Below are positions 25,895 through 37,212 of a DNA stretch of 37,212 nucleotides, in pieces. Position 1 is the stretch's first letter, and each line of letters begins with the position of its first letter. Source of the DNA: a bacterium (GTDB taxonomy: Bacteria; UBP14; UBA6098; B30-G16); assembly GCA_021159335.1 (NCBI GenBank), contig JAGGRZ010000059.1:1-37212 (forward strand). Reading direction: 5' to 3'. The translations under genes were made by a program, and so were the position numbers. The notes under the pieces were generated by a model. That model had not been told where the DNA came from, ran no database searches, and was given only the letters and a program-made list of their open reading frames with translations.

Positions 25895-26563
25895 CTACAG
25901 TTCTAAAGCGGCTTCGTGTTTGTGTGGCAGGATACCTTTTTTCCTGTATGACAGTCCGAGCTTGAATCCCTCCTCAAGAGCATCAAGATTGGTTTTTAAG
26001 TATTTTGAACCACCAAATTTGTCCTCGACAGCACCTTTTATCGCATTTTTCGAAACAATTCTTGTGTATGTGGAAAGGAACCCGAGAACGATCATATTGG
26101 CAGGTATAGGAGTATTGAATTTATCCATACTCGTCTCGATAAAGGGAACGGTTATCGTTACGGCAGGTCCTACGGGTGATTCTGCCGCAGATGAGTCAGC
26201 TATCACCAATCCTTCGGGTTTAACATGCTGCGCGTAGTACTCGTATGAGCTTGGAGTGAGAGCTATCAGCAAGTCTGGCTTCAAACACTCTGGGAAGTAA
26301 ATTTCTTTATCGCTAATCACGACATCGGCAAGTGTCGCTCCGCCACGAGCCTCAGGACCATAATGCTGGCTCTGGGCAACATTTCTTCCATCGCCAATGG
26401 CTATGGCTTCACCAAGAAGCATCCCCATAGATATTATTCCCTGTCCACCAGCTCCCACAATCCTTATTTCAAACCTATCCACTTTGGGCGGTAGAAGTCC
26501 GGGGAATTCCTCTTTTTTTGCCTTTGTGTTTTTGGTTTTTCTTTTTTTTCTTTTGTCTTGCAT
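25895..26563 (-). CDS. korC: 2-oxoacid:ferredoxin oxidoreductase gamma subunit (KorC type)
   Basis: 222 residues. The gamma subunit of four-subunit 2-oxoacid:ferredoxin oxidoreductases helps assemble the core that converts a 2-oxoacid and CoA to acyl-CoA, CO2 and reduced ferredoxin. The family opening IRIVGAGGQGIISMG lies near residue 33, followed by QSHYGPEARGG and IVLGFLSTYTRIV. The first 20 residues are an unusual basic stretch (MQDKRKKRKTKNTKAKKEEF) before the normal start of the domain; a good GGAGAG site supports this start. It ends the korDABC operon, 15 bases after korB. Confidence 0.9.
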   Translation of the reverse strand: MQDKRKKRKTKNTKAKKEEFPGLLPPKVDRFEIRIVGAGGQGIISMGMLLGEAIAIGDGRNVAQSQHYGPEARGGATLADVVISDKEIYFPECLKPDLLIALTPSSYEYYAQHVKPEGLVIADSSAAESPVGPAVTITVPFIETSMDKFNTPIPANMIVLGFLSTYTRIVSKNAIKGAVEDKFGGSKYLKTNLDALEEGFKLGLSYRKKGILPHKHEAALEL

Positions 26564-26578
26564 TTTAACTCTCCAATA

Positions 26579-27430
26579 TTATTCGACGCTTACTTTCAAC
26601 TGAACCTTTTTTATCAAATCGGCGTACGCTTCCGTATATTCCTTACGCGATGTATCCTCTTTGAATATTCCGATAATTATTTTTCCCTTTAATTCATCTT
26701 CAGTCATATTTTTAGCCTTTGATAGAGGCACTGCGTTTTTTCGCTGCCATTCGAGCATGTCTGTTGGTTTTGGCATGTCGTTAAGTCTTCCGAAAATTAT
26801 GGGACACTGGCTCATAATCTCGACGAAGGAGAAACCTTTATGCATGATAGCTTTCTTAATGTAGTTTTCGGTCTGAACTATGTGGTAAACAGTGCTTCTT
26901 GCCACGAATGTTGCGCCAGCGGCCATGGCTAATTTGACGGCGTCGAAAGGCGGGTCAATGTTTCCGTAGGGTGCGGTATGTGCTATCGCGCCTATCGGAG
27001 TCGTTGGAGCCACCTGACCACCAGTCATGCCGTAGATGTAATTGTTAATGAGAATCATAGTTATATCTATATTTCTTCGTGCGGTATGGATGAAATGGTT
27101 CCCACCTATAGCCAGACCGTCGCCATCACCACTGACCACAATAACGGTCATCTCAGGATTTGCCAACTTAACGCCCGTAGCGAAAGCCAATGCTCTGCCG
27201 TGTGTAGTATGAAGTGTATTGAAGTCCACATAGATAGGCATTCTACTTGAGCAACCAATGCCCGATATCAGTGATACATTGTCCTTGGGTATTCCCAAAG
27301 ATGCTACCGCTCGTATTATTGCGCCCGTTATGGTTCCTATGCCACAACCTGAACACCAAACTGTTGGAAACACTTTTCTCCACCTCAAATAGTCATAAAT
27401 GTTTATTTCCTCTTTAACTTTAGTGGGCAT
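26579..27430 (-). CDS. korB: 2-oxoacid:ferredoxin oxidoreductase beta subunit (KorB type)
   Basis: 283 residues from the ATG at 27430. The beta subunit binds thiamine diphosphate. The opening WCSGCGIGTITGAI, GIGCSSRMP and the cofactor motif GDGDGLAIGGNH ending in NNYIYGMTGGQ are all present. I trimmed an upstream in-frame Met at 27451 because a perfect AAGGAGG sits 6 bases before 27430. With this start it overlaps korA by 11 bases. Order D-A-B-C matches the four-subunit 2-oxoglutarate enzymes (OorDABC) of epsilonproteobacteria, hence my 2-oxoglutarate call; a branched-chain 2-oxoacid (Vor-type) substrate remains possible. Confidence 0.92.
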   Translation of the reverse strand: MPTKVKEEINIYDYLRWRKVFPTVWCSGCGIGTITGAIIRAVASLGIPKDNVSLISGIGCSSRMPIYVDFNTLHTTHGRALAFATGVKLANPEMTVIVVSGDGDGLAIGGNHFIHTARRNIDITMILINNYIYGMTGGQVAPTTPIGAIAHTAPYGNIDPPFDAVKLAMAAGATFVARSTVYHIVQTENYIKKAIMHKGFSFVEIMSQCPIIFGRLNDMPKPTDMLEWQRKNAVPLSKAKNMTEDELKGKIIIGIFKEDTSRKEYTEAYADLIKKVQLKVSVE

Positions 27431-28586
27431 GAATTTCCTCCTTAATAGCACTTATTATTTGTTCGGGATTAAGTGGACGACCATCATATCTTAAAATACT
27501 TTTTATTTTTTCTTTTTTGGGCAAAACTTCCCTTACGGGATGAACGAGTTGCCCCATATTGTTTTCTGCTACAAATATAGCTTTTACATTCTTAGCAAGA
27601 TTTAGCAATGGTTCATCAGGGAACGGCCAAATCGTTTTGAGTTCCATCAATCCTACTTTTACATTCTTTCTTCGCAGCTTTTCTACTGCATCACGAGCTG
27701 CTCTTGCCGCGGAACCATATGCTACAATCAGGAATTTGGCATCATCGGTATAGTATTCTCGCCAATCCCAGATCTGGGCTTTGTGGCTCATTATTTTGGC
27801 TCTTAGCATTTCAAGTCCTTCGGTTATTTCAGCGGGTATTTGCGTTGGAAAACCTAAGCGGTCGTGGGTTAAACCTGTTATGCTATATCGGTATCCTGAG
27901 CCGAATGGAGCAGGATGTGCCACCATGTCCGCTGTCGGAGCATAGGGTATATACCATTCCGGCGGCGCTTTTGGGAAAGCCCTCTCGACTACCTCGACCT
28001 CTTTATCAAGTCTTATTATGAGTTTTTCTCGCATGTGCCCGATTAACTCATCCATAAGAACTATAACAGGTGTGCTAAACTTTTCCGCAAGATTGAAAGC
28101 AGTTATCATCATATCAAATGTCTCCTGAACCGAAGCGGGTGCTATTGCTATCGCAGTATAATCGCCATGAGTTCCCCATCTTGCCTGCATCGTATCGCTT
28201 TGCGCCAGTCTTGTCGGCAATCCTGTGGATGGTCCGCCTCTTTGAACATTAACTATAACTATGGGTAGTTGGACCATGTAGGCATATCCGATGTTCTCCT
28301 GCATTAGCGAAAATCCCGGTCCAGATGTTGCTGTCATCGCTTTCGCACCTGCTGCTGAGGCTCCTATTATAGCAGCTATAGAGGCTATCTCGTCTTCCAT
28401 CTGAATAAACACTCCGCCCACTTTGGGCAACTCTCTCGACATACCCTCTGCTATTTCTGAGGATGGTGTTATAGGATAACCTGCGAAAAATCGACAGCCT
28501 GCTTTTATCGCGCCGTAAACGCAGGCATCATTGCCTTGAACAAACATTATTTGGTGACCATCCTCAGTGGTTCTATTTAGGGGCAT
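27420..28586 (-). CDS. korA: 2-oxoacid:ferredoxin oxidoreductase alpha subunit (KorA type)
   Basis: 388 residues. The alpha subunit carries the pyrimidine-binding side of the thiamine site and the 2-oxoacid pocket. The opening QGNDACVYGAIKAGCRFFAGYPITPSSEI is read here in two parts: GNDACVYGAIKAG, then GYPITPSSEIAE, the KorA signature. MEDEIASIAAIIGAS, ATSGPGFSLM and VNVQRGGPSTGLPT follow. A domain II segment begins near residue 275 (KFLIVAYGSAARA). GGGAGGAA precedes the ATG. It overlaps korD by 14 bases and korB by 11, so the operon is tightly coupled. The enzyme would work in anaerobic carbon metabolism, either oxidising 2-oxoglutarate or carboxylating succinyl-CoA if ferredoxin is reduced enough. 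Confidence 0.93.
   Translation of the reverse strand: MPLNRTTEDGHQIMFVQGNDACVYGAIKAGCRFFAGYPITPSSEIAEGMSRELPKVGGVFIQMEDEIASIAAIIGASAAGAKAMTATSGPGFSLMQENIGYAYMVQLPIVIVNVQRGGPSTGLPTRLAQSDTMQARWGTHGDYTAIAIAPASVQETFDMMITAFNLAEKFSTPVIVLMDELIGHMREKLIIRLDKEVEVVERAFPKAPPEWYIPYAPTADMVAHPAPFGSGYRYSITGLTHDRLGFPTQIPAEITEGLEMLRAKIMSHKAQIWDWREYYTDDAKFLIVAYGSAARAARDAVEKLRRKNVKVGLMELKTIWPFPDEPLLNLAKNVKAIFVAENNMGQLVHPVREVLPKKEKIKSILRYDGRPLNPEQIISAIKEEIHAH
27437..27443 (-). promoter_or_regulatory. Shine-Dalgarno that fixes the korB start
   Basis: On the minus strand AAGGAGG lies 6 bases before the ATG at 27430, inside the 3' end of korA. It decides between 27430 and the longer start at 27451. Confidence 0.75.
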
Positions 28587-28890
28587 CTTTTGGTTCCTCC
28601 CAGTTAGGATTTTTCATTATTGCGAAATCGGGACAAATTCTCCAGCAAAGACTGCACAAAGTGCACTTTGATTCATCAGCCATATATGGTGTCCCATCTT
28701 TTTTTGCCGCCAGTGCTTTGGTGGGGCAAATATAAACGCAGATACCACACTTTTTGCACCACTCATAGAAAAATATTAGTTTCCCTTTATGCTGTTCGAT
28801 TCTTTTAGGAGTAATTGGATGAATAGCCATTCCTGAACCAAATACTCTATGGTTGGTCTGCTGACAGTCATTATTTTGATTTTGTTTCAT
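28573..28890 (-). CDS. korD: 2-oxoacid:ferredoxin oxidoreductase delta subunit, two [4Fe-4S] ferredoxin
   Basis: 105 residues from the ATG at 28890. It is the iron-sulfur subunit that carries electrons from the core to soluble ferredoxin. Two cluster-binding motifs are clear: CKKCGICVYICP and CTLCSLCWRICP, each of the CxxCxxCxxxCP form. I trimmed four residues (MEVV) because GGAGG sits 5 bases before 28890, while nothing ribosome-like precedes 28902. It is the first gene of the operon and has a probable promoter at 28915-28945. The Asn/Gln-rich first 12 residues look disordered. Confidence 0.93.
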   Translation of the reverse strand: MKQNQNNDCQQTNHRVFGSGMAIHPITPKRIEQHKGKLIFFYEWCKKCGICVYICPTKALAAKKDGTPYMADESKCTLCSLCWRICPDFAIMKNPNWEEPKDAPK

Positions 28891-28895
28891 TACAA

Positions 28896-28900
28896 CCTCC
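28896..28900 (-). promoter_or_regulatory. Shine-Dalgarno that fixes the korD start
   Basis: GGAGG on the minus strand, 5 bases before the ATG at 28890. It overlaps the alternative ATG at 28902, which would have no site of its own. Confidence 0.65.
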
Positions 28901-28914
28901 ATATAAATTTTTGA

Positions 28915-28995: not shown

Positions 28996-30849
28996 GTGAA
29001 AGAGGTTCGCCTTAAAAGAAAGCTTGGTTTCTACGATGTTTATTGCATTTCAACGGGGGCAATGGTCTCATCGGGTCTGTTTGTTCTTCCCGGTATAGCT
29101 CACGCCAAAGCGGGACCAGCAGTCGCTGTCTCCTATCTACTTGCTGGTGCTCTTGCACTTATTGGAGTGCTATCCCAGAGCGAACTCGTAAGTGCTATGC
29201 CCAGAACTGGCGGAAGCTACTTCTACATAACGCGCAGTCTTGGCTCTGCACTGGGAACATCTGCAGGTATAATGCTTTGGCTTTCGGTGATGCTTAAGAC
29301 ATCGTTTGCGCTGGTTGGTATGGGAGCGTTCGCAAATTATCTATTCCCTGGATTTCCCGTAAGGACATTTGCACTTATTTTCGCGATACTTTTTATCATC
29401 CTTAACATAAAGGGTATAAAGCAAGCGGCTAAATTCGAGGTCATCGTAGTTACAGCGCTAATAGTAACATTCGTGTTCTATATTTTTAGAGGGCTACCAA
29501 GCATATCCGAAGACAAACTTTTGCCGTTTGTTCCTTATGGATGGAACTCAGTTTTGGTAACCGCAGGGCTTGTTTTCGTCTCATATGGCGGGGTTTTGAA
29601 GGCAGCGAGCATTGCGGAAGAGGTGAAAAAGCCTCATATCAACATTCCCAAAGCGATGATAGTATCGCTTGTGACCATGATGCTCGTTTATTTCGTGGTG
29701 GTTTTTATAACAGCCGGAGTGCTCGACGCAGAAGTTCTTGATGCAAGTTTGACTCCTATATCGGATGCTGCTAAGGCTTTTGCCGGTAAATTTGGTGCTA
29801 TAGTAATGACATTCGGTGCTATGCTCGCTTTTATTTCCACCGCTAATGCTGGAATAATGGCTGCTGCGCGATATCCTGTTGCTATGGCTCGAGACAGGCT
29901 CATGCCGGGCTGGTTTAGTAGGATTAGTCCGAAAACCAATACCCCATCAATTTCAATACTAATAACAGGGCTTGTGATTGTTGCGGCTTTATTTCTGCCA
30001 CTCGTTGAGCTCGTTGAGATGGCCTCAACTGTGATGATACTTACATTTATTCTCGATATTATAAGCATGATAATAATGCGTGAGAGCCACTTGCAAAACT
30101 ACCAGCCGACATTTAGAGCACCTCTTTATCCTTTCCTTCAAATAATAGGAATATTAGGACTTATGTTCCTCATCACAGATATGGGATATCTCTCACTATT
30201 TTTATCCGCTTTACTCATAGTTATTGGGCTTCTTTGGTATTGGTTTTACGGAAGGGTGAAAATAGCGCGGGAATACGCGTTAAGCTTTCTGATATCGAGA
30301 ATAACCACATCACAGCTCAAGGGGAATTTGCTGGAAACTGAACTCAGGGAGATAATACGAGAAAGGGATGGCATAACGCGGGATACTATAGACGCATTAA
30401 TTGAAGATGCACCGCTTTTGGACTTTGAAGGAGAGATTAGTGCTGCAGAGCTTTTCCGCAGGGCATCCAAGATTTTCTCGGAAATGTTTAGTGAACCAGA
30501 AAATTCAATATTAAAGAAATTTCTTTCCCGCGAGGTTGAGTCAACTACAGTTATAGGTCCAAACCTTGCCATACCTCACATTATAGTTGAAGGGGAGGGG
30601 AAACTCGCCATGGTCATAGCCCGTAGTAAAGGTGGCATTTTCTTTCCGTCTGCTGATTATCCTGTTTACGCTTGTTTTTTACTTGCGGGAAGCAAAGATA
30701 CTCGAAATCTTTATTTAAAGACGCTGGCTGCTATAGCCGAGATGACTGGTAAGAAAGAATTCGAGAGGAAGTGGCTTTCGGCCAAAGATGAAACGGCTTT
30801 GAAAAACATACTACTATTAAGCAAAAGGAGGCGCTATGGCACAAACTGA
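28996..30849 (+). CDS. APC-family amino acid permease fused to a PTS EIIA-like domain
   Basis: 617 residues, starting with GTG; no ribosome site is clear, but no other start keeps the first helix. Residues ~8-420 form a 12-helix APC-type transporter (first helix STGAMVSSGLFVLPGIAHAKAGPA, later SEDKLLPFVPYGW and AMARDRLMPGWFSRI). From about 440 a soluble region leads into a PtsN-like EIIA domain (about 490-610) with the conserved phospho-acceptor context AIPHIIVEG, His528. The EIIA part suggests that uptake is gated by phosphorylation; no EI or HPr gene is in the window, so the donor is unknown. Its last 14 bases overlap the NSS gene start. The permease probably imports an amino acid. Confidence 0.85.
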   Translation: MKEVRLKRKLGFYDVYCISTGAMVSSGLFVLPGIAHAKAGPAVAVSYLLAGALALIGVLSQSELVSAMPRTGGSYFYITRSLGSALGTSAGIMLWLSVMLKTSFALVGMGAFANYLFPGFPVRTFALIFAILFIILNIKGIKQAAKFEVIVVTALIVTFVFYIFRGLPSISEDKLLPFVPYGWNSVLVTAGLVFVSYGGVLKAASIAEEVKKPHINIPKAMIVSLVTMMLVYFVVVFITAGVLDAEVLDASLTPISDAAKAFAGKFGAIVMTFGAMLAFISTANAGIMAAARYPVAMARDRLMPGWFSRISPKTNTPSISILITGLVIVAALFLPLVELVEMASTVMILTFILDIISMIIMRESHLQNYQPTFRAPLYPFLQIIGILGLMFLITDMGYLSLFLSALLIVIGLLWYWFYGRVKIAREYALSFLISRITTSQLKGNLLETELREIIRERDGITRDTIDALIEDAPLLDFEGEISAAELFRRASKIFSEMFSEPENSILKKFLSREVESTTVIGPNLAIPHIIVEGEGKLAMVIARSKGGIFFPSADYPVYACFLLAGSKDTRNLYLKTLAAIAEMTGKKEFERKWLSAKDETALKNILLLSKRRRYGTN

Positions 30850-32329
30850 GAAGGCTTACTGGTCGAGCAGAACCGCATTCATTCTTGCCTCAATAGGTTC
30901 TGCTATAGGCCTCGGTAATGTCTGGCGGTTCCCTTACATTTGCTACAAATACGGAGGAGGAGCCTTTATAATAGCGTATTTGGTTTCGCTTTTTTTGGCT
31001 GGGATACCGTTACTTATTCTTGAGTTTGCGCTGGGACAGAGAATAGGTGGTTCTGCTCCTGTGGCTTTCGCAAAGCTTTCCAAAAGATTCGCATGGATAG
31101 GGTGGTTCGCGATACTGGTTGGTTTTTTTATTACAACCTACTACGCGGTGATAATGTCCTGGGCGGCTAATTATCTTGTGTATTCGTTTAAGCTTTCTTG
31201 GGGGAGTGACCCCAAATCGTTTTTCTTCAACAAAGTTTTGGGACTAACTGATAGCATCGCGAATTTTGGCTCGATACAGACGCACCTCGTTATAGGGCTT
31301 ATTATAATGTGGGTCTGGATTGTTCTTTCAATATGGAAAGGGGCTAAAACTGTCAGTAAAGTAGTTTATTTCACCGTCACTATACCTTGGATAATACTTA
31401 TAACGCTTGTTATAGGTGGACTAACGCTCCCTAATGCTTTTGAGGGAATCAAGTATTATTTAACTCCTAAGTGGGATATGTTGCTTAAGCCACAAATCTG
31501 GCAGGCAGCATTTACGCAAGTTTTCTTCTCGCTTTCCGTTGGATTCGGGGTTATGATTGCGTATGCGAGCTTTCTTCCGCCCAAGTCAGACCTGGTCAAC
31601 AATGCGATGATAATAGCACTCTCAGATGCTGCGACAGCGTATGTAGGCGGATTCGCTGTTTTTTCGGTTCTCGGATACTATGCTGGCTTGCAGGGAGTAG
31701 AAGTTGCCAAAGTTATGAAAAGTGGTCCCGAATTGGCTTTCATAACATATCCAGAAATAATAAATCACTTACCGTTAGCGCCTCTTGTGGGAATCCTTTT
31801 CTTCCTGATGTTGTTAACTCTGGCTATCGATTCAGCTTTCTCGTTGGTTGAGGGATTCGTGGCAGGCGTTATGGAAACTTTTGGTACAAGAAGAGGAAGG
31901 ACCAACATTTTTGTTGCCTTAGTAGCATTCCTCATAGGCATAATCTACACCACTGGTGCGGGATTATACTGGCTCGACCTTGTTGACCACTACATGACTT
32001 TCTTCGGACTATTTGCAGTAGGCTTTCTTGAGGCACTCGTAGTTGGATGGTTTATCGACACCGAGAAAATAAGAGAGATGATAAATGCGCATTCCATAGT
32101 GAAAATAGGGAAGTGGTGGAATGTGGCGGTGAAGTTTTTCGTTCCGATAGCATCTATTGTGTTGTTGCTATCATCGGTTATCGGTATTATAATAAAACCG
32201 TATGGTGGTTATCCACGGTGGGCAGAGCTTGTTGGTGGATGGCTGTTGCTTGCTATTGCAGTGATTTTGGGTTTCATATTGGGGAAGCAAACGGTAAAAG
32301 CATTGAAAGAGAAAGGTTTGGAGGGGTAA
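30836..32329 (+). CDS. Neurotransmitter:sodium symporter (NSS/SNF) family transporter
   Basis: 497 residues with 11-12 membrane helices in the LeuT plan. It would use the Na+ gradient to import an amino acid. The first helix carries the diagnostic GSAIGLGNVWRFPY (21-34, unwound region at GLGNVW), and later helices show QVFFSLSVGFGVMIAYASF (sodium and substrate site) and LTLAIDSAFSLVEGF. AAGGAGG sits 6 bases before the ATG, inside the end of the permease gene. A MetS-like 30-residue gene begins one base after its stop, which points to a MetPS-type two-part transporter; methionine or alanine are known substrates in that group, but the substrate here is not determined. Confidence 0.93.
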   Translation: MAQTEKAYWSSRTAFILASIGSAIGLGNVWRFPYICYKYGGGAFIIAYLVSLFLAGIPLLILEFALGQRIGGSAPVAFAKLSKRFAWIGWFAILVGFFITTYYAVIMSWAANYLVYSFKLSWGSDPKSFFFNKVLGLTDSIANFGSIQTHLVIGLIIMWVWIVLSIWKGAKTVSKVVYFTVTIPWIILITLVIGGLTLPNAFEGIKYYLTPKWDMLLKPQIWQAAFTQVFFSLSVGFGVMIAYASFLPPKSDLVNNAMIIALSDAATAYVGGFAVFSVLGYYAGLQGVEVAKVMKSGPELAFITYPEIINHLPLAPLVGILFFLMLLTLAIDSAFSLVEGFVAGVMETFGTRRGRTNIFVALVAFLIGIIYTTGAGLYWLDLVDHYMTFFGLFAVGFLEALVVGWFIDTEKIREMINAHSIVKIGKWWNVAVKFFVPIASIVLLLSSVIGIIIKPYGGYPRWAELVGGWLLLAIAVILGFILGKQTVKALKEKGLEG

Positions 32330-32330
32330 A

Positions 32331-32423
32331 ATGTTCACATCACCCTGGTTTACTTTCGTGATAGCTTCTGTTGTTTTGTTCGGGGGAATAATATGGTCGA
32401 TAATAATAGCCAAAAGAAAATAA
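32331..32423 (+). CDS. MetS-like small subunit of NSS transporter
   Basis: 30 residues with one membrane helix (FTFVIASVVLFGGIIWSIIIA) and a basic end (KRK). It starts one base after the NSS stop codon, behind a GGAGGGG ribosome site. Small single-helix partners in this exact position are known as MetS-family NSS transporter small subunits; in Corynebacterium MetP needs MetS for methionine uptake. Size, topology, PW near the N-terminus and location all fit. It overlaps the kinase gene by 31 bases in another frame. Confidence 0.8.
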   Translation: MFTSPWFTFVIASVVLFGGIIWSIIIAKRK

Positions 32424-33913
32424 AAAGAGCCGACATTCTCGAGTTCATAATAAAAAATATCCCCCAGGGAATAGCCATCCTTGACCGCGATTTAAATCTC
32501 GTTTACACTAATTCAGCGCTTAAGGACATTCTTGGTGTTGGCTTAAAGAAACTTGACACAAAGTTCCCGGAATACCTTAACGCTTTAGGGGAGAGCAAGG
32601 GAGAGGTCGCAAGGCTAATACGGCAGTTCACAGAAACAGATGATAGAAGCTTTTTCTTTACAGTAACGACGGATCGTGGTTTCACATACAGGATTGCGCT
32701 TGTTAGGATTAATTCAGGACATTCGGAGTATCAATATATGTTACTCATTCAGGACATAACAAAAGAGATGGAGCTATTCATGCATCAGACGCTGATAAAG
32801 CAGCATAAATACCTTGAGAATATATCCGCAATACTTTTCCATAAACTTAACAATAATCTGATGACTATACTTAGTGAGGCGGAACTTATTCACAGGCGGA
32901 TTCCGCCCAACCAACGACAATATGTGGACGATGTTTTTGACAATCTCGAAGAACATTTGATAGAAATTTCTGAATTCGTAAACCTTCTCGCGTCTTTTAT
33001 GAGGGTTGAACTTAAGGAGAAGGTTGAATTCAATCCGATTAAAGTGCTTAAGGATATTTTGAAAAACATCTCGGAAAAGCAAGCGTTAGGTCACATAGTG
33101 CAGTTTGACGCTCCAGCAGAGGATGTAATAGTAAAAGGTGAGCCAAAGGCTTTTGAGGTAGCAATAAAAGCTATATTGGATAATGCTATACGGTCGATAT
33201 CGGGCAAAGGCAGAATAGTCATTAATGTAGAGACCATAACTGCAGATACATACTTTCTCCAGAGATACAGCGAGCTTAAGCCGGGGGAATACCTTAAAAT
33301 CTCAATTGCCGATACGGGAATTGGCATACCTAAAGAATTTATGAGCAGGATTTTTGAACCATTCTTCTCAGGCTGGTCTCAACCTTCTAAAGGGCTTGGG
33401 CTTCCTACCGCATTAACGGCCATAAGAAGAAATTCAGGCACTATCGACATCCAAAGCTTTCCTGGAGTTGGGACTACTGTAACTATTCTGCTTCCTCTCG
33501 AGACCAAAGTCATTCCAACAAGACAACCAGTTATTGCGAAGGGCAAATTGATTCTCGTTATCGATGATGATAGCCTCGTTCGCGAAACGGTTTCTCGAAT
33601 GCTTTCAGCTTTGGGATTTGAGGTGGAATGCGCTAAGAATTTTTCTGATGGTATGAAAAAGTTCAGAGACAGAAAACCATCAGTTGTTCTGCTCGATATA
33701 GTCATGCCGGATTCACCGGGGGACGAGGTGTTCTATGAGCTTAAGAAGGTCAGTCCCGATGTTCCCATAGTTATCATGACGGGTTACGCTCAGATAGACA
33801 CGGTTGAGAAACTTCTTGATGCAGGTGCAGCTGGCATACTTAACAAACCTTTCACAATGGAAGACCTTTCAGAGGCTATTAATCTTGCTATGGAGGATTC
33901 AGGTGGCGTATAA
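32393..33913 (+). CDS. Hybrid sensor histidine kinase with C-terminal receiver
   Basis: 506 residues, no membrane helices, so it is cytoplasmic. A PAS domain (about 14-125: NIPQGIAILDRDLNLVYTN) is followed by a dimerisation helix with H-box FHKLNNNLMTILSEAE (His150), then the ATP-binding domain with N-box (NAIRSISGKG), G1 (ADTGIGIPKE), F-box (FEPFFSG) and G2 (SKGLGLPTA). A receiver domain (about 385-505) has phospho-acceptor Asp435 in VVLLDIVMP and Lys near NKPF. The output is not DNA-binding, so a phosphotransfer partner is needed elsewhere. Its start lies inside the MetS-like gene, which suggests it senses or controls the transporters of this cassette; that is inference. Confidence 0.92.
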   Translation: MVDNNSQKKIKRADILEFIIKNIPQGIAILDRDLNLVYTNSALKDILGVGLKKLDTKFPEYLNALGESKGEVARLIRQFTETDDRSFFFTVTTDRGFTYRIALVRINSGHSEYQYMLLIQDITKEMELFMHQTLIKQHKYLENISAILFHKLNNNLMTILSEAELIHRRIPPNQRQYVDDVFDNLEEHLIEISEFVNLLASFMRVELKEKVEFNPIKVLKDILKNISEKQALGHIVQFDAPAEDVIVKGEPKAFEVAIKAILDNAIRSISGKGRIVINVETITADTYFLQRYSELKPGEYLKISIADTGIGIPKEFMSRIFEPFFSGWSQPSKGLGLPTALTAIRRNSGTIDIQSFPGVGTTVTILLPLETKVIPTRQPVIAKGKLILVIDDDSLVRETVSRMLSALGFEVECAKNFSDGMKKFRDRKPSVVLLDIVMPDSPGDEVFYELKKVSPDVPIVIMTGYAQIDTVEKLLDAGAAGILNKPFTMEDLSEAINLAMEDSGGV

Positions 33914-34101: not shown

Positions 34102-35769
34102 ATGCGCATCGCAAATGTGTTATCGCTGGCGCTTTTTTCTCTAATGCTTTTTTGGGTAACAGTAATTTTCGCTCAACCACACATAGTCTGGCAGAAATCA
34201 TTTGGTGGAAGTGATGATGATTGGGCACAATCGATTCAACAGACTGCTGATGGTGGATTCATTGTGGCGGGAATGTCCGAGTCCAATAATGGAGATATTA
34301 GTGGAAACCACGGCTATTCTGATTGTTGGATAGTGAAATTGAATTCTTCGGGTTCAATAGTCTGGCAGAAATGCCTTGGTGGAAGTAATTGGGATTGTGC
34401 GTATTCCATTCAGCAAACATTAGATGGTGGATTTATCATGGCAGGAGTGTCCTGTTCCAATGATGGTGATGTCAGCGGAAATCACGGTGGTTGTGATTGT
34501 TGGATAGTTAAGTTAGATTCTTATGGTAATATAGTCTGGCAGAAATGCCTTGGTGGAAGTTATTGGGATGGTGCATATTCTATTCAGCAAACATTAGATG
34601 GCGGTTTCATCGTGGCGGGGGTGTCTAATTCCAATGATGGCGATGTCAGTGGAAATCATGGCTATGCTGATTATTGGGTAGTGAAATTAAATTCTTCGGG
34701 TGATATAGAATGGCAAAAATGCCTTGGCGGAAGTTTTTGGGATTATGCATTATCTGTTCAGCAAACGAGCGATGGTGGATACATTGTGGCGGGGGTTTCC
34801 TGTTCCAATAATGGCGATGTAAGCGGAAATCACGGCGGTAGTGATTATTGGATAGTTAAATTAGATTCTTATGGTAGTATGGTCTGGCAGAAATGCCTTG
34901 GCGGAAGTGGCTATGACATAGCGTATTCCGTTCAACAAACCACCGATGGCGGTTTTATTGTTGCGGGATATTCCAACTCTAATGATGGCGATGTCAGCGG
35001 AAATCATGGCAGTAGTGATTATTGGGTAGCGAGGTTGAATTCTTCTGGCAACATAATCTGGCAGAAATGTCTTGGCGGGAGTGGATATGACATAGCGCAT
35101 TCCATTCAACAGACAACTGATGGTGGGTTCATTGTAACGGGATGGTCCTCCTCCAACGACGGTGATGTTATTGGACACCATCCTGGCGAATATTGGGATT
35201 ATTGTGAGTCTGACGTTCCCAACTATTATGGTATGCGTGATAGCATTTGGAATGAATATTCTGATTATTGGTTAGTAAAATTGAATTCTGCGGGTTCAAT
35301 AGTCTGGCAGAAATGCCTTGGAGGAAGTTCTTGGGATCGTGCATATTGTGTTCAACAGACCTTCGATGGTGGGTTCATAGTGGCAGGAGTATCCGAGTCC
35401 AATGATGGCGATGTAAATGTAAACTACGGGGATTATGATTATTGGTTAGTGAAATTGTCGCCTGTTGGAGTAATCGAGAATATGATTGTTCCTGAGCAGT
35501 TCGCAGTCTCAGTTTTCCCCAACCCATTCAATTCCTCGTGTGTTATAGCTGCACCTTCAGGAGCAAAAATAGAGATATATGATATAAAAGGTAATGTTGT
35601 ATTTACATCATATGTTCATCGTTCTATTTCTTGCCAAAAAAAGGTGGAACAACAAAGGATAGAGCAGTTTATCTGGACCCCAAATGAAAATATACCATCT
35701 GGGATTTACTTAGTATGTGCAAAGGTAAATGATAAAATTTCGGAAAAAAGAGTTATCTATATAAAATAA
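34102..35769 (+). CDS. Secreted seven-repeat (propeller-like) protein with sorting domain, copy 1
   Basis: 555 residues. A signal peptide ends at Ala24 (VIFA|QPH). Seven tandem repeats follow (residues 28-457), each 58 residues except the sixth, which carries a 24-residue insertion. The consensus is (I/V)WQKCLGGS, then DxAxSIQQTxDGGFIVAG, then SNDGDVSGNHG and DYWVVKLxSxG. Seven copies of this size fit a seven-bladed beta-propeller, and the Asp/Asn/Gly-rich loop could bind calcium; both points are inference. The end (about 465-555) is a type A sorting domain: FPNPFNS, IYDIKGNVV, GIYLVCAKV, KRVIYIK. It is probably a surface protein of unknown ligand. AAAGGAGG precedes the ATG. A close paralogue follows after 38 bases. 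Confidence 0.85.
   Translation: MRIANVLSLALFSLMLFWVTVIFAQPHIVWQKSFGGSDDDWAQSIQQTADGGFIVAGMSESNNGDISGNHGYSDCWIVKLNSSGSIVWQKCLGGSNWDCAYSIQQTLDGGFIMAGVSCSNDGDVSGNHGGCDCWIVKLDSYGNIVWQKCLGGSYWDGAYSIQQTLDGGFIVAGVSNSNDGDVSGNHGYADYWVVKLNSSGDIEWQKCLGGSFWDYALSVQQTSDGGYIVAGVSCSNNGDVSGNHGGSDYWIVKLDSYGSMVWQKCLGGSGYDIAYSVQQTTDGGFIVAGYSNSNDGDVSGNHGSSDYWVARLNSSGNIIWQKCLGGSGYDIAHSIQQTTDGGFIVTGWSSSNDGDVIGHHPGEYWDYCESDVPNYYGMRDSIWNEYSDYWLVKLNSAGSIVWQKCLGGSSWDRAYCVQQTFDGGFIVAGVSESNDGDVNVNYGDYDYWLVKLSPVGVIENMIVPEQFAVSVFPNPFNSSCVIAAPSGAKIEIYDIKGNVVFTSYVHRSISCQKKVEQQRIEQFIWTPNENIPSGIYLVCAKVNDKISEKRVIYIK
34183..35472 (+). repeat. 174-bp tandem repeats, seven copies, copy 1 gene
   Basis: Units begin at 34183, 34357, 34531, 34705, 34879, 35053 and 35299. 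Six are exactly 174 bases; the sixth is 246 because of a 72-base insertion. Conservation is high at the DNA level, for example in the 'TGGCAGAAATGCCTTGG' block at the start of units 2-5 and 7. Confidence 0.88.
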
Positions 35770-35807
35770 CTGTGTTAATATTTCTTAACTCGAAGAGGAG
35801 GTTCTTT

Positions 35808-37212
35808 ATGCGAATTATAAAGATAATATCGCTTACATTTGTTATTTTAATCCTTTTTTCGGGAACAGTAATTTTCGCTCAACCACACATAGTCTGGCAG
35901 AAATCACTTGGTGGGAGTAATGATGATTGGGCACAATCAATTCAAGAGACTGTTGATGGCGGATTCATTATGGCAGGATATTCTTCCTCCAATGATGGCG
36001 ATGTTAGTGGAAACCATGGCTCTGCTGACTTTTGGGTAGTAAAAATGAAATACACAGGTTCAATAGCATGGCAGAAATGTTTTGGTGGAAGCTTTTGGGA
36101 TGGAGCGTATTCCGTTCAGCAAACATTCGATGGCGGATTCATTGTCGCTGGTTGGTCAAAATCCAATGATGGTGATGTAAGCGGAAACCATGGTGGAGGT
36201 GATTATTGGATAGTAAAAATTGATTCTTCAGGCAACATAGAGTGGCAGAAATGTCTCGGTGGAAGTAGTAAGGATATTGCATATTCCATTCAACAGACTA
36301 TTGATGGCGGATACATCGTAGCAGGAAGGTCCAGATCAAATGATGGCGATGTTAGTGGAAATCATGGCTCCGACGATTATTGGGTGGTAAAATTGGATTC
36401 TTCTGGCAATATAGAGTGGCAGAAATGTCTCGGAGGAAGTCTTTGGGACCGTGCATATTCCATTCAACAGACTGCTGATGGCGGATTCATTGTTGCAGGA
36501 TGGTCAAAGTCCAATGATGGCGATGTCATTGGTAACCACGGCGGTGGTGATTGTTGGATAGTGAAATTGAAATCATCGGGTGAAATAGCTTGGCAGAAAT
36601 GTCTCGGCGGAAGTGGTTGTGACATAGCATATTCCATTCAACAAACCACCGATGGCGGTTTTATTGTAGCAGGATTGTCCCACTCTAATGATGGCGATGT
36701 AAGCGGAAATCACGGCGGTGGTGATTATTGGGTAGTAAAAATTGATTCTTTTGGCGATATAGAATGGCAAAAATGCCTTGGAGGAAGTAATTATGATGAG
36801 GCACATTTCGTTAAACAGACAATAGATGACGGTTTTATTGTCGCAGGGTATTCTAAATCCAATGATGGCGATGTCAGCGGAAACCATGGCGGAGATGACT
36901 GTTGGGTAGTGAAATTAAATTCTTCTGGTTATATAGAGTGGCAAAAGTGCCTTGGTGGAAGTAATCGTGATTGGGTATATGATATTCAGCAAACGGCAGA
37001 TGGCGGATTCATCGTGGCGGGATTATCCGAGTCCAACGATGGCGATGTCAGCGGGAATCACGGCGGGATTGATTGCTGGGTAGTTAAGTTATCGCTTACT
37101 GGGGTAAGTGAGGATATAATTGTTCCCCAGCAATTCAAATTGTCAGTTTCACCAAATCCATTCAATTCATCGTGTATAATAACTGCCCCTTCAGGAGCAA
37201 AGGTAGAAATAT
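35808..37212 (+). CDS. Secreted seven-repeat (propeller-like) protein, copy 2, cut at the window edge
   Basis: 468 codons are present and the reading frame is open at the right edge, so the 3' end is missing. The signal peptide ends at Ala24 in the same position as copy 1, and residues 20-31 are the same in both (TVIFAQPHIVWQ). Seven repeats of exactly 58 residues follow (28-433) with the same consensus and no insertion. The start of the sorting domain is visible: VPQQFKLSVSPNPFNSS. By comparison with copy 1 about 60 residues are missing. GAGGAGG sits before the ATG. It arose by tandem gene duplication; the 38-base gap makes co-transcription likely. Confidence 0.85.
   Translation, partial: MRIIKIISLTFVILILFSGTVIFAQPHIVWQKSLGGSNDDWAQSIQETVDGGFIMAGYSSSNDGDVSGNHGSADFWVVKMKYTGSIAWQKCFGGSFWDGAYSVQQTFDGGFIVAGWSKSNDGDVSGNHGGGDYWIVKIDSSGNIEWQKCLGGSSKDIAYSIQQTIDGGYIVAGRSRSNDGDVSGNHGSDDYWVVKLDSSGNIEWQKCLGGSLWDRAYSIQQTADGGFIVAGWSKSNDGDVIGNHGGGDCWIVKLKSSGEIAWQKCLGGSGCDIAYSIQQTTDGGFIVAGLSHSNDGDVSGNHGGGDYWVVKIDSFGDIEWQKCLGGSNYDEAHFVKQTIDDGFIVAGYSKSNDGDVSGNHGGDDCWVVKLNSSGYIEWQKCLGGSNRDWVYDIQQTADGGFIVAGLSESNDGDVSGNHGGIDCWVVKLSLTGVSEDIIVPQQFKLSVSPNPFNSSCIITAPSGAKVEI
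35889..37106 (+). repeat. 174-bp tandem repeats, seven copies, copy 2 gene
   Basis: Units begin at 35889, 36063, 36237, 36411, 36585, 36759 and 36933, all exactly 174 bases. They are in phase with the codons and align with the units of copy 1, whose first unit starts 1706 bases upstream. Confidence 0.9.

Follow-up and report, generated by a model that had tools for sequence, protein, structure and literature searches.

The element conserved at the locus described here is the pairing of a gene for a MetS-like membrane peptide with a gene for a hybrid sensor kinase, and not the four-gene cluster in which the pair was encountered. The locus lies in a 37,212-nt stretch of DNA (the window) from a 2.06-Mb assembly (G000) that is 98% complete, and consists of genes for an amino-acid permease fused to an EIIA-Ntr-like domain, an NSS/SLC6-type sodium symporter, the peptide and the kinase. 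The peptide gene directly precedes an orthologue of the kinase gene in five genera (G000, G001, G002, G003 and G004), and this lasting adjacency, kept even where the pair lies away from the transporter, suggests that the kinase may sense the transporter.

Composition of the locus

Four forward-strand open reading frames were confirmed exactly at the coordinates in Table 1, with the spacing that the first-pass annotation had given: a 14-nt overlap between the permease and NSS genes, a 1-nt gap between the NSS gene and the MetS-like gene directly after it, and a 31-nt overlap between the MetS-like and kinase genes. Short gene overlaps are commonplace in bacterial operons. The 31-nt overlap is taken to be real because the ATG at 32393 is the sole in-frame start before the PAS domain. 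The oxidoreductase and ferredoxin genes that form the divergent context of the cluster are also found, all four of them, divergently upstream of the NSS gene in G003 (L121). A promoter and terminator scan found terminators no commoner than in shuffled sequence. Positions 34102-37211 hold tandem paralogues encoding repeat-rich secreted proteins with WQKCLGGS repeats, the first of which carries a C-terminal sorting domain (Por_Secre_tail).

Table 1. Coordinates of the features of the locus within the window
Feature	Position	Strand	Basis
2-oxoacid:ferredoxin oxidoreductase gamma, beta, alpha and ferredoxin genes (divergent context)	25895..28902	-	domain matches
APC-family amino-acid permease with C-terminal EIIA-Ntr-like domain, 617 aa, GTG start	28996..30849	+	Pfam
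EIIA domain, residues 484-606	30445..30813	+	PTS_EIIA_2
Phospho-acceptor His528 codon	30577-30579	+	motif GPNLAIPH
NSS/SLC6-type sodium symporter, 497 aa	30836..32329	+	Pfam SNF (PF00209), E 5.8e-134
MetS-like one-helix membrane peptide, 30 aa	32331..32423	+	NF033493
MetS-like/kinase reading-frame overlap, 31 nt	32393..32423	+	ORF coordinates
Soluble hybrid sensor kinase	32393..33913	+	PAS (22-124), HATPase (251-370), REC (387-497)

Most of what the first-pass annotation said of the individual proteins is borne out. The PTS-type phospho-acceptor domain that it placed on the permease is confirmed by the motif GPNLAIPH and by the Pfam matches, which are to AA_permease_2 (residues 10-398, E 1.3e-43) and PTS_EIIA_2 (PF00359, E 7.1e-19). 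In an AlphaFold2 model of the permease (mean pLDDT 81), a low-confidence linker (residues 424-462) is followed by a well-ordered C-terminal domain, and the only match of the EIIA part among solved structures is 1a6j, nitrogen regulatory IIA (EIIA-Ntr). Close homologues were checked for loss of the acceptor histidine, and His528 proved invariant in 17 of 17 aligned fusions (the window copy and 16 copies from relatives, these 36-55% identical). The 30-residue peptide also stands: it has one predicted transmembrane segment and scores 20.9 bits against MetS_like_NSS (NF033493), under the 25-bit curated cut-off, and the label MetS-like holds because its orthologues in G002 (31.5 bits) and G004 (27.8 bits) pass that cut-off. 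The same is true of the soluble PAS hybrid kinase, given its PAS, HATPase and REC matches and the lack of any predicted transmembrane segment. By contrast, the description of the two transporters as unrelated does not really hold, as APC and NSS carriers have the LeuT fold in common and belong to a single superfamily (PMC7918813).

Many relatives carry an APC-EIIA fusion, as do distant lineages. Because family databases list architectures of this sort, we do not claim the fusion as new; a literature search on APC-EIIA fusions found nothing relevant, and a search of viral contigs with the permease gave no match. The solved structures matched by the NSS protein are SLC6 carriers, and no second NSS gene was found in the assembly, the window copy being the single gene. 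The Pfam matches of the kinase are PAS_4, HATPase_c and Response_reg, with no STAC among them; its H-box histidine is His150 and its receiver aspartate Asp435, and the motifs lie at positions 149 (FHKLNN), 263 (DNAIRS), 307 (DTGIGI), 334 (GLGLP) and 433 (LLDIVMP). The HisKA model itself matches weakly (E 0.075); the FHKLNN H-box and the N, G1 and G2 boxes are kept in the kinase orthologues. An N-terminal stretch of some 105 residues, a PAS-like region, is present in orthologues of about 612 aa and missing from the window kinase. Next to the kinase gene, neither a response regulator gene nor an HPt gene was noticed. A named-genome search for the kinase returned five close orthologues, all within the family already found, and the next match beyond that family is a distant kinase (29% identical) on a Poribacteria contig.

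The genome encodes both EI and HPr, as the first-pass annotation had proposed checking. EI consists of three PEP-utiliser domains only, with no GAF domain detected, and the HPr gene is split over two contig ends, the halves of which give NKLGLHARPA, including the LHARPA site. There are six EIIA domains in the genome, and no match to PTS_IIB (PF02302, the EIIB family searched) was found in it. Two further EIIA genes, at L037 1483-3433 and L040 2-1944, adjoin transporter genes, for a Na/H exchanger and for CitMHS (the latter as EIIA-CBS). Because EI, HPr and EIIA are present, PTS_IIB has no match and His528 is invariant, it is plausible that a regulatory PTS gates the APC permease through His528.

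Gene order in related genomes

The full four-gene order is found in the window only among the genomes examined, some relatives having contigs that end too early to tell. A conserved four-gene system was rejected once the gene neighborhoods around homologues of APC-EIIA, NSS and the kinase had been read, and of the self-contained amino-acid sensing and import unit of the first-pass annotation there remain the import genes with a PTS-type acceptor. Neighbors in relatives are kept as parts of the cluster rather than as a whole: NSS adjoins APC-EIIA in G001 only (L043, 28-nt gap) among the APC-EIIA neighborhoods read in relatives, and besides the window only G003 (L121) has the order NSS-MetS-kinase. 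A single system in which the kinase and a PTS phosphorelay jointly tune both transporters, as originally proposed, is therefore very unlikely. The compact order in the window fits it, and the G001 and G003 arrangements could be what is left of an ancestral four-gene order; but APC-EIIA is without an NSS neighbor in G002, G003 and G004 and lies beside genes of aspartate-family biosynthesis in G008 and G011, no kinase or PTS partner common to both halves was found, and no link between the kinase and the PTS was found either. The window order may be ancestral and partly retained in G001 and G003, or the window may be a place where two gene pairs met.

The aspartate-family neighbors are an aspartate-semialdehyde dehydrogenase gene adjoining APC-EIIA in both G008 and G011 (L044 9911-12129 and L045 269-1267) and, in G008, an aspartate-kinase-like gene (in L044); they hint at an aspartate-family amino acid as the substrate of the permease. 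The APC-EIIA gene of G013 adjoins an ETF-alpha/ferredoxin gene.

The MetS-like/kinase junction is more durable. Reading frames overlap in four of the five genera, by 17 nt in G001, 11 nt in G002 and 4 nt in G004 besides the window, while G003 has a 109-nt gap and no overlap. The kinases of G001, G002 and G004 are 32-34% identical to that of the window, and the junction is still kept at a kinase divergence that reaches 32-37% identity. No kinase orthologue without MetS was seen where the contig allows a check, and in all seven genomes open to checking there is one MetS-like gene apiece. The other neighbor of the kinase varies: it is valS in G003, belongs to riboflavin synthesis in G002 and is a different gene in G001 and the window.

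In G001, G002 and G004, the pair is found away from NSS, behind a gene of the OmpA/PorP type (about 965-995 aa), and at the NSS locus of G002 it is rmuC, not MetS, that adjoins. The orthologous outer-membrane protein (OMP) gene is followed by neither MetS nor kinase in G000, G003 and G006, G006 being truncated by a contig end that makes it uninformative on MetS. In genus g6 (G005 and G007), what comes after the OMP gene is MetS with no kinase beside it, the next gene being mannose-1-phosphate guanylyltransferase-like as judged from its first residues; MetS thus does not need the kinase. The OMP tree separates G001, G002, G004, G005 and G007 from G000, G003 and G006 (support 92/93), a split that the NSS and kinase trees share as far as their members go. 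These trees fit vertical descent with a single relocation of MetS and kinase together. Since NSS-MetS is the usual arrangement outside the family, the simplest history would start from an NSS-MetS-kinase order in the family ancestor; thereafter MetS and kinase would have moved once, together, and the kinase would have been lost once.

We also searched 386 genomes with NF033493 (E <= 0.001), and matches were obtained in 26. Outside the window's class, the MetS-like gene follows NSS in nearly all cases. The MetS flanks were compared with the kinases already identified, and no kinase was found beside MetS outside the window's family in the flanks read; a general MetS-kinase association was accordingly rejected, and the kinase link appears special to this family. 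In family f2 (G008 and G011), MetS lies away from both NSS and kinase, after genes for secreted proteins with sorting domains (orphan MetS-like genes at L197 4653-4796 and L198 5192-5314, behind Omp28/Por_Secre_tail genes). MetS has thus departed from NSS on more than one occasion, in keeping with a trans-acting subunit.

Several other arrangements were observed. In several genomes (L182, L232, L237, L239 and L242), an NSS gene of another type precedes MetS, after which comes a DNA polymerase III delta-like gene (an identity checked against Pfam on the L199 copy only), and at L199 (G060) the MetS-delta pair lies behind bacA rather than NSS. The rmuC gene follows NSS both in G002 (L122 9524-10432) and in the distant genome G045 (L127 9313-10836); the G045 and window NSS proteins share 63% identity, and transfer between lineages is possible. 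Two-component genes located before NSS in G013 and G010 (family f4), encoding a HAMP kinase and a receiver-GGDEF protein, with an intervening TPR gene in G013, were considered and set aside as unrelated to the window kinase.

Possible coupling of the carrier to the kinase

We hypothesize, tentatively and with somewhat less than even confidence, that the locus is an amino-acid uptake cluster with two separate control devices, the kinase being coupled to NSS through MetS. In the first device, the EI-HPr pair would phosphorylate the tethered EIIA-Ntr-like domain on His528, and this phosphorylation would let carbon and energy status (PEP) gate uptake by the permease. In the second, the MetS helix would serve both as small subunit of NSS and as the place where the soluble kinase docks, and movement of substrate or sodium through NSS would thereby set kinase activity. 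NSS, MetS and kinase would together form a transceptor like CbrXA, made of separate polypeptides and with an NSS carrier instead of an SLC5 one; that MetS joins carrier and kinase is suggested by analogy with CbrX-CbrA. Whereas the gene anatomy and the intact active-site motifs are observed, co-transcription, physical contact, the direction of the signal, phosphorylation and substrates are inferred. Slightly less confidence attaches to the specific proposal of a split transceptor, in which an NSS (SLC6-like) symporter would act in trans as sensory input to a two-component phosphorelay, the MetS helix being its physical link to the soluble hybrid kinase, and microprotein and kinase being inherited as a unit.

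An adjacency confined to one family, with one relocation, is also compatible with plain operon inertia, which we regard as an equally serious rival and hold with the same reserve: the genes would be co-transcribed as ordinary operon neighbors, with no contact between transporter and kinase, and the pair would have moved as a small linked segment. Short overlaps are common enough in bacterial operons to need no special cause, a single relocation event suffices, G005 and G007 keep MetS without the kinase, and gene order around APC-EIIA and NSS is fluid. What inertia explains less readily is that across five genera MetS alone stays beside the kinase while the other neighbors change, the two frames overlapping in four of the five, and that the junction was retained although the kinases diverged so far.

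A third explanation, which we consider unlikely, is that the MetS-like peptide of this family no longer serves NSS and is now a membrane anchor, an activator or a translation-setting leader of the kinase. The pair does lie away from NSS in three genera, the NSS gene of G002 has rmuC and no MetS beside it, and the sequence of the CbrX peptide seems unimportant, its coupling to CbrA being translational (PMC7096432). Yet MetS-like peptides occur with no adjacent kinase in G005, G007 and family f2, the peptides paired with the kinase in G002 and G004 are still recognized by their scores as NSS small subunits, and no second MetS gene that could serve NSS was found in these genomes.

Relation to known systems

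The nearest precedent for coupling through MetS is CbrX-CbrA of Pseudomonas (SLC5-STAC-PAS-HK; PMC13022988, PMC7096432). CbrX is a membrane peptide of about 58 aa, whose gene overlaps cbrA and is translationally coupled to it; the peptide binds the SLC5 domain (PMC13022988) and is seen bound to the carrier domain in a cryo-EM structure, yet is dispensable for growth on histidine (PMC13022988, PMC7096432). Both systems have a gene for a small hydrophobic peptide upstream of, and overlapping, a PAS-kinase gene, together with a LeuT-fold amino-acid carrier. Whereas CbrA unites SLC5 and STAC in one polypeptide, the NSS carrier of the window is a polypeptide of its own and STAC is absent; the peptide is a single 30-aa helix of the MetS family, and the kinase is soluble and has a receiver domain. 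NSS-MetS-kinase would thus work like a transceptor but would not be a member of the CbrA family. The order of a carrier gene followed by a small-subunit gene of MetS type is that of MetPS of Corynebacterium glutamicum, a methionine/alanine importer (Trotschel et al. 2008, as cited in PMC5105988). No kinase is known to be attached to MetPS; the window peptide scores below the curated cut-off, and in sister genera of the window genome MetS does not adjoin NSS.

Trigger transporters coupled to sensors are represented by DctA-DcuS and LysP-CadC (PMC5703999, PMC7096432), in which, as here, a separate transporter is proposed to control a separate sensor protein; the window differs from them in its NSS carrier and in the MetS-type peptide as the proposed link, and no case of an NSS carrier linked to a sensor by such a peptide was found in the literature searched. 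On the permease side, the genome resembles the nitrogen-related PtsP-PtsO-PtsN system (PMC13104625) in having an EIIA-Ntr-type domain, EI and HPr with no PTS_IIB match; in other bacteria, transporters are under PTS-Ntr control (PMC3665714, PMC9239096). The genome is distinguished by an EIIA domain covalently tethered to an APC permease, an EI with no detected GAF domain and an unclassified bacterial lineage.

The APC-EIIA fusion, with its histidine conserved across distant lineages, would represent direct covalent PTS control over an amino-acid permease. If MetS links the NSS carrier to the kinase, an overlooked family of 30-residue subunits would gain a role, and transceptors would be extended from SLC5 to SLC6-related carriers. 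Such a split system, with parts that can be added or removed singly, would make it possible to ask whether the signal is transport itself or no more than binding.
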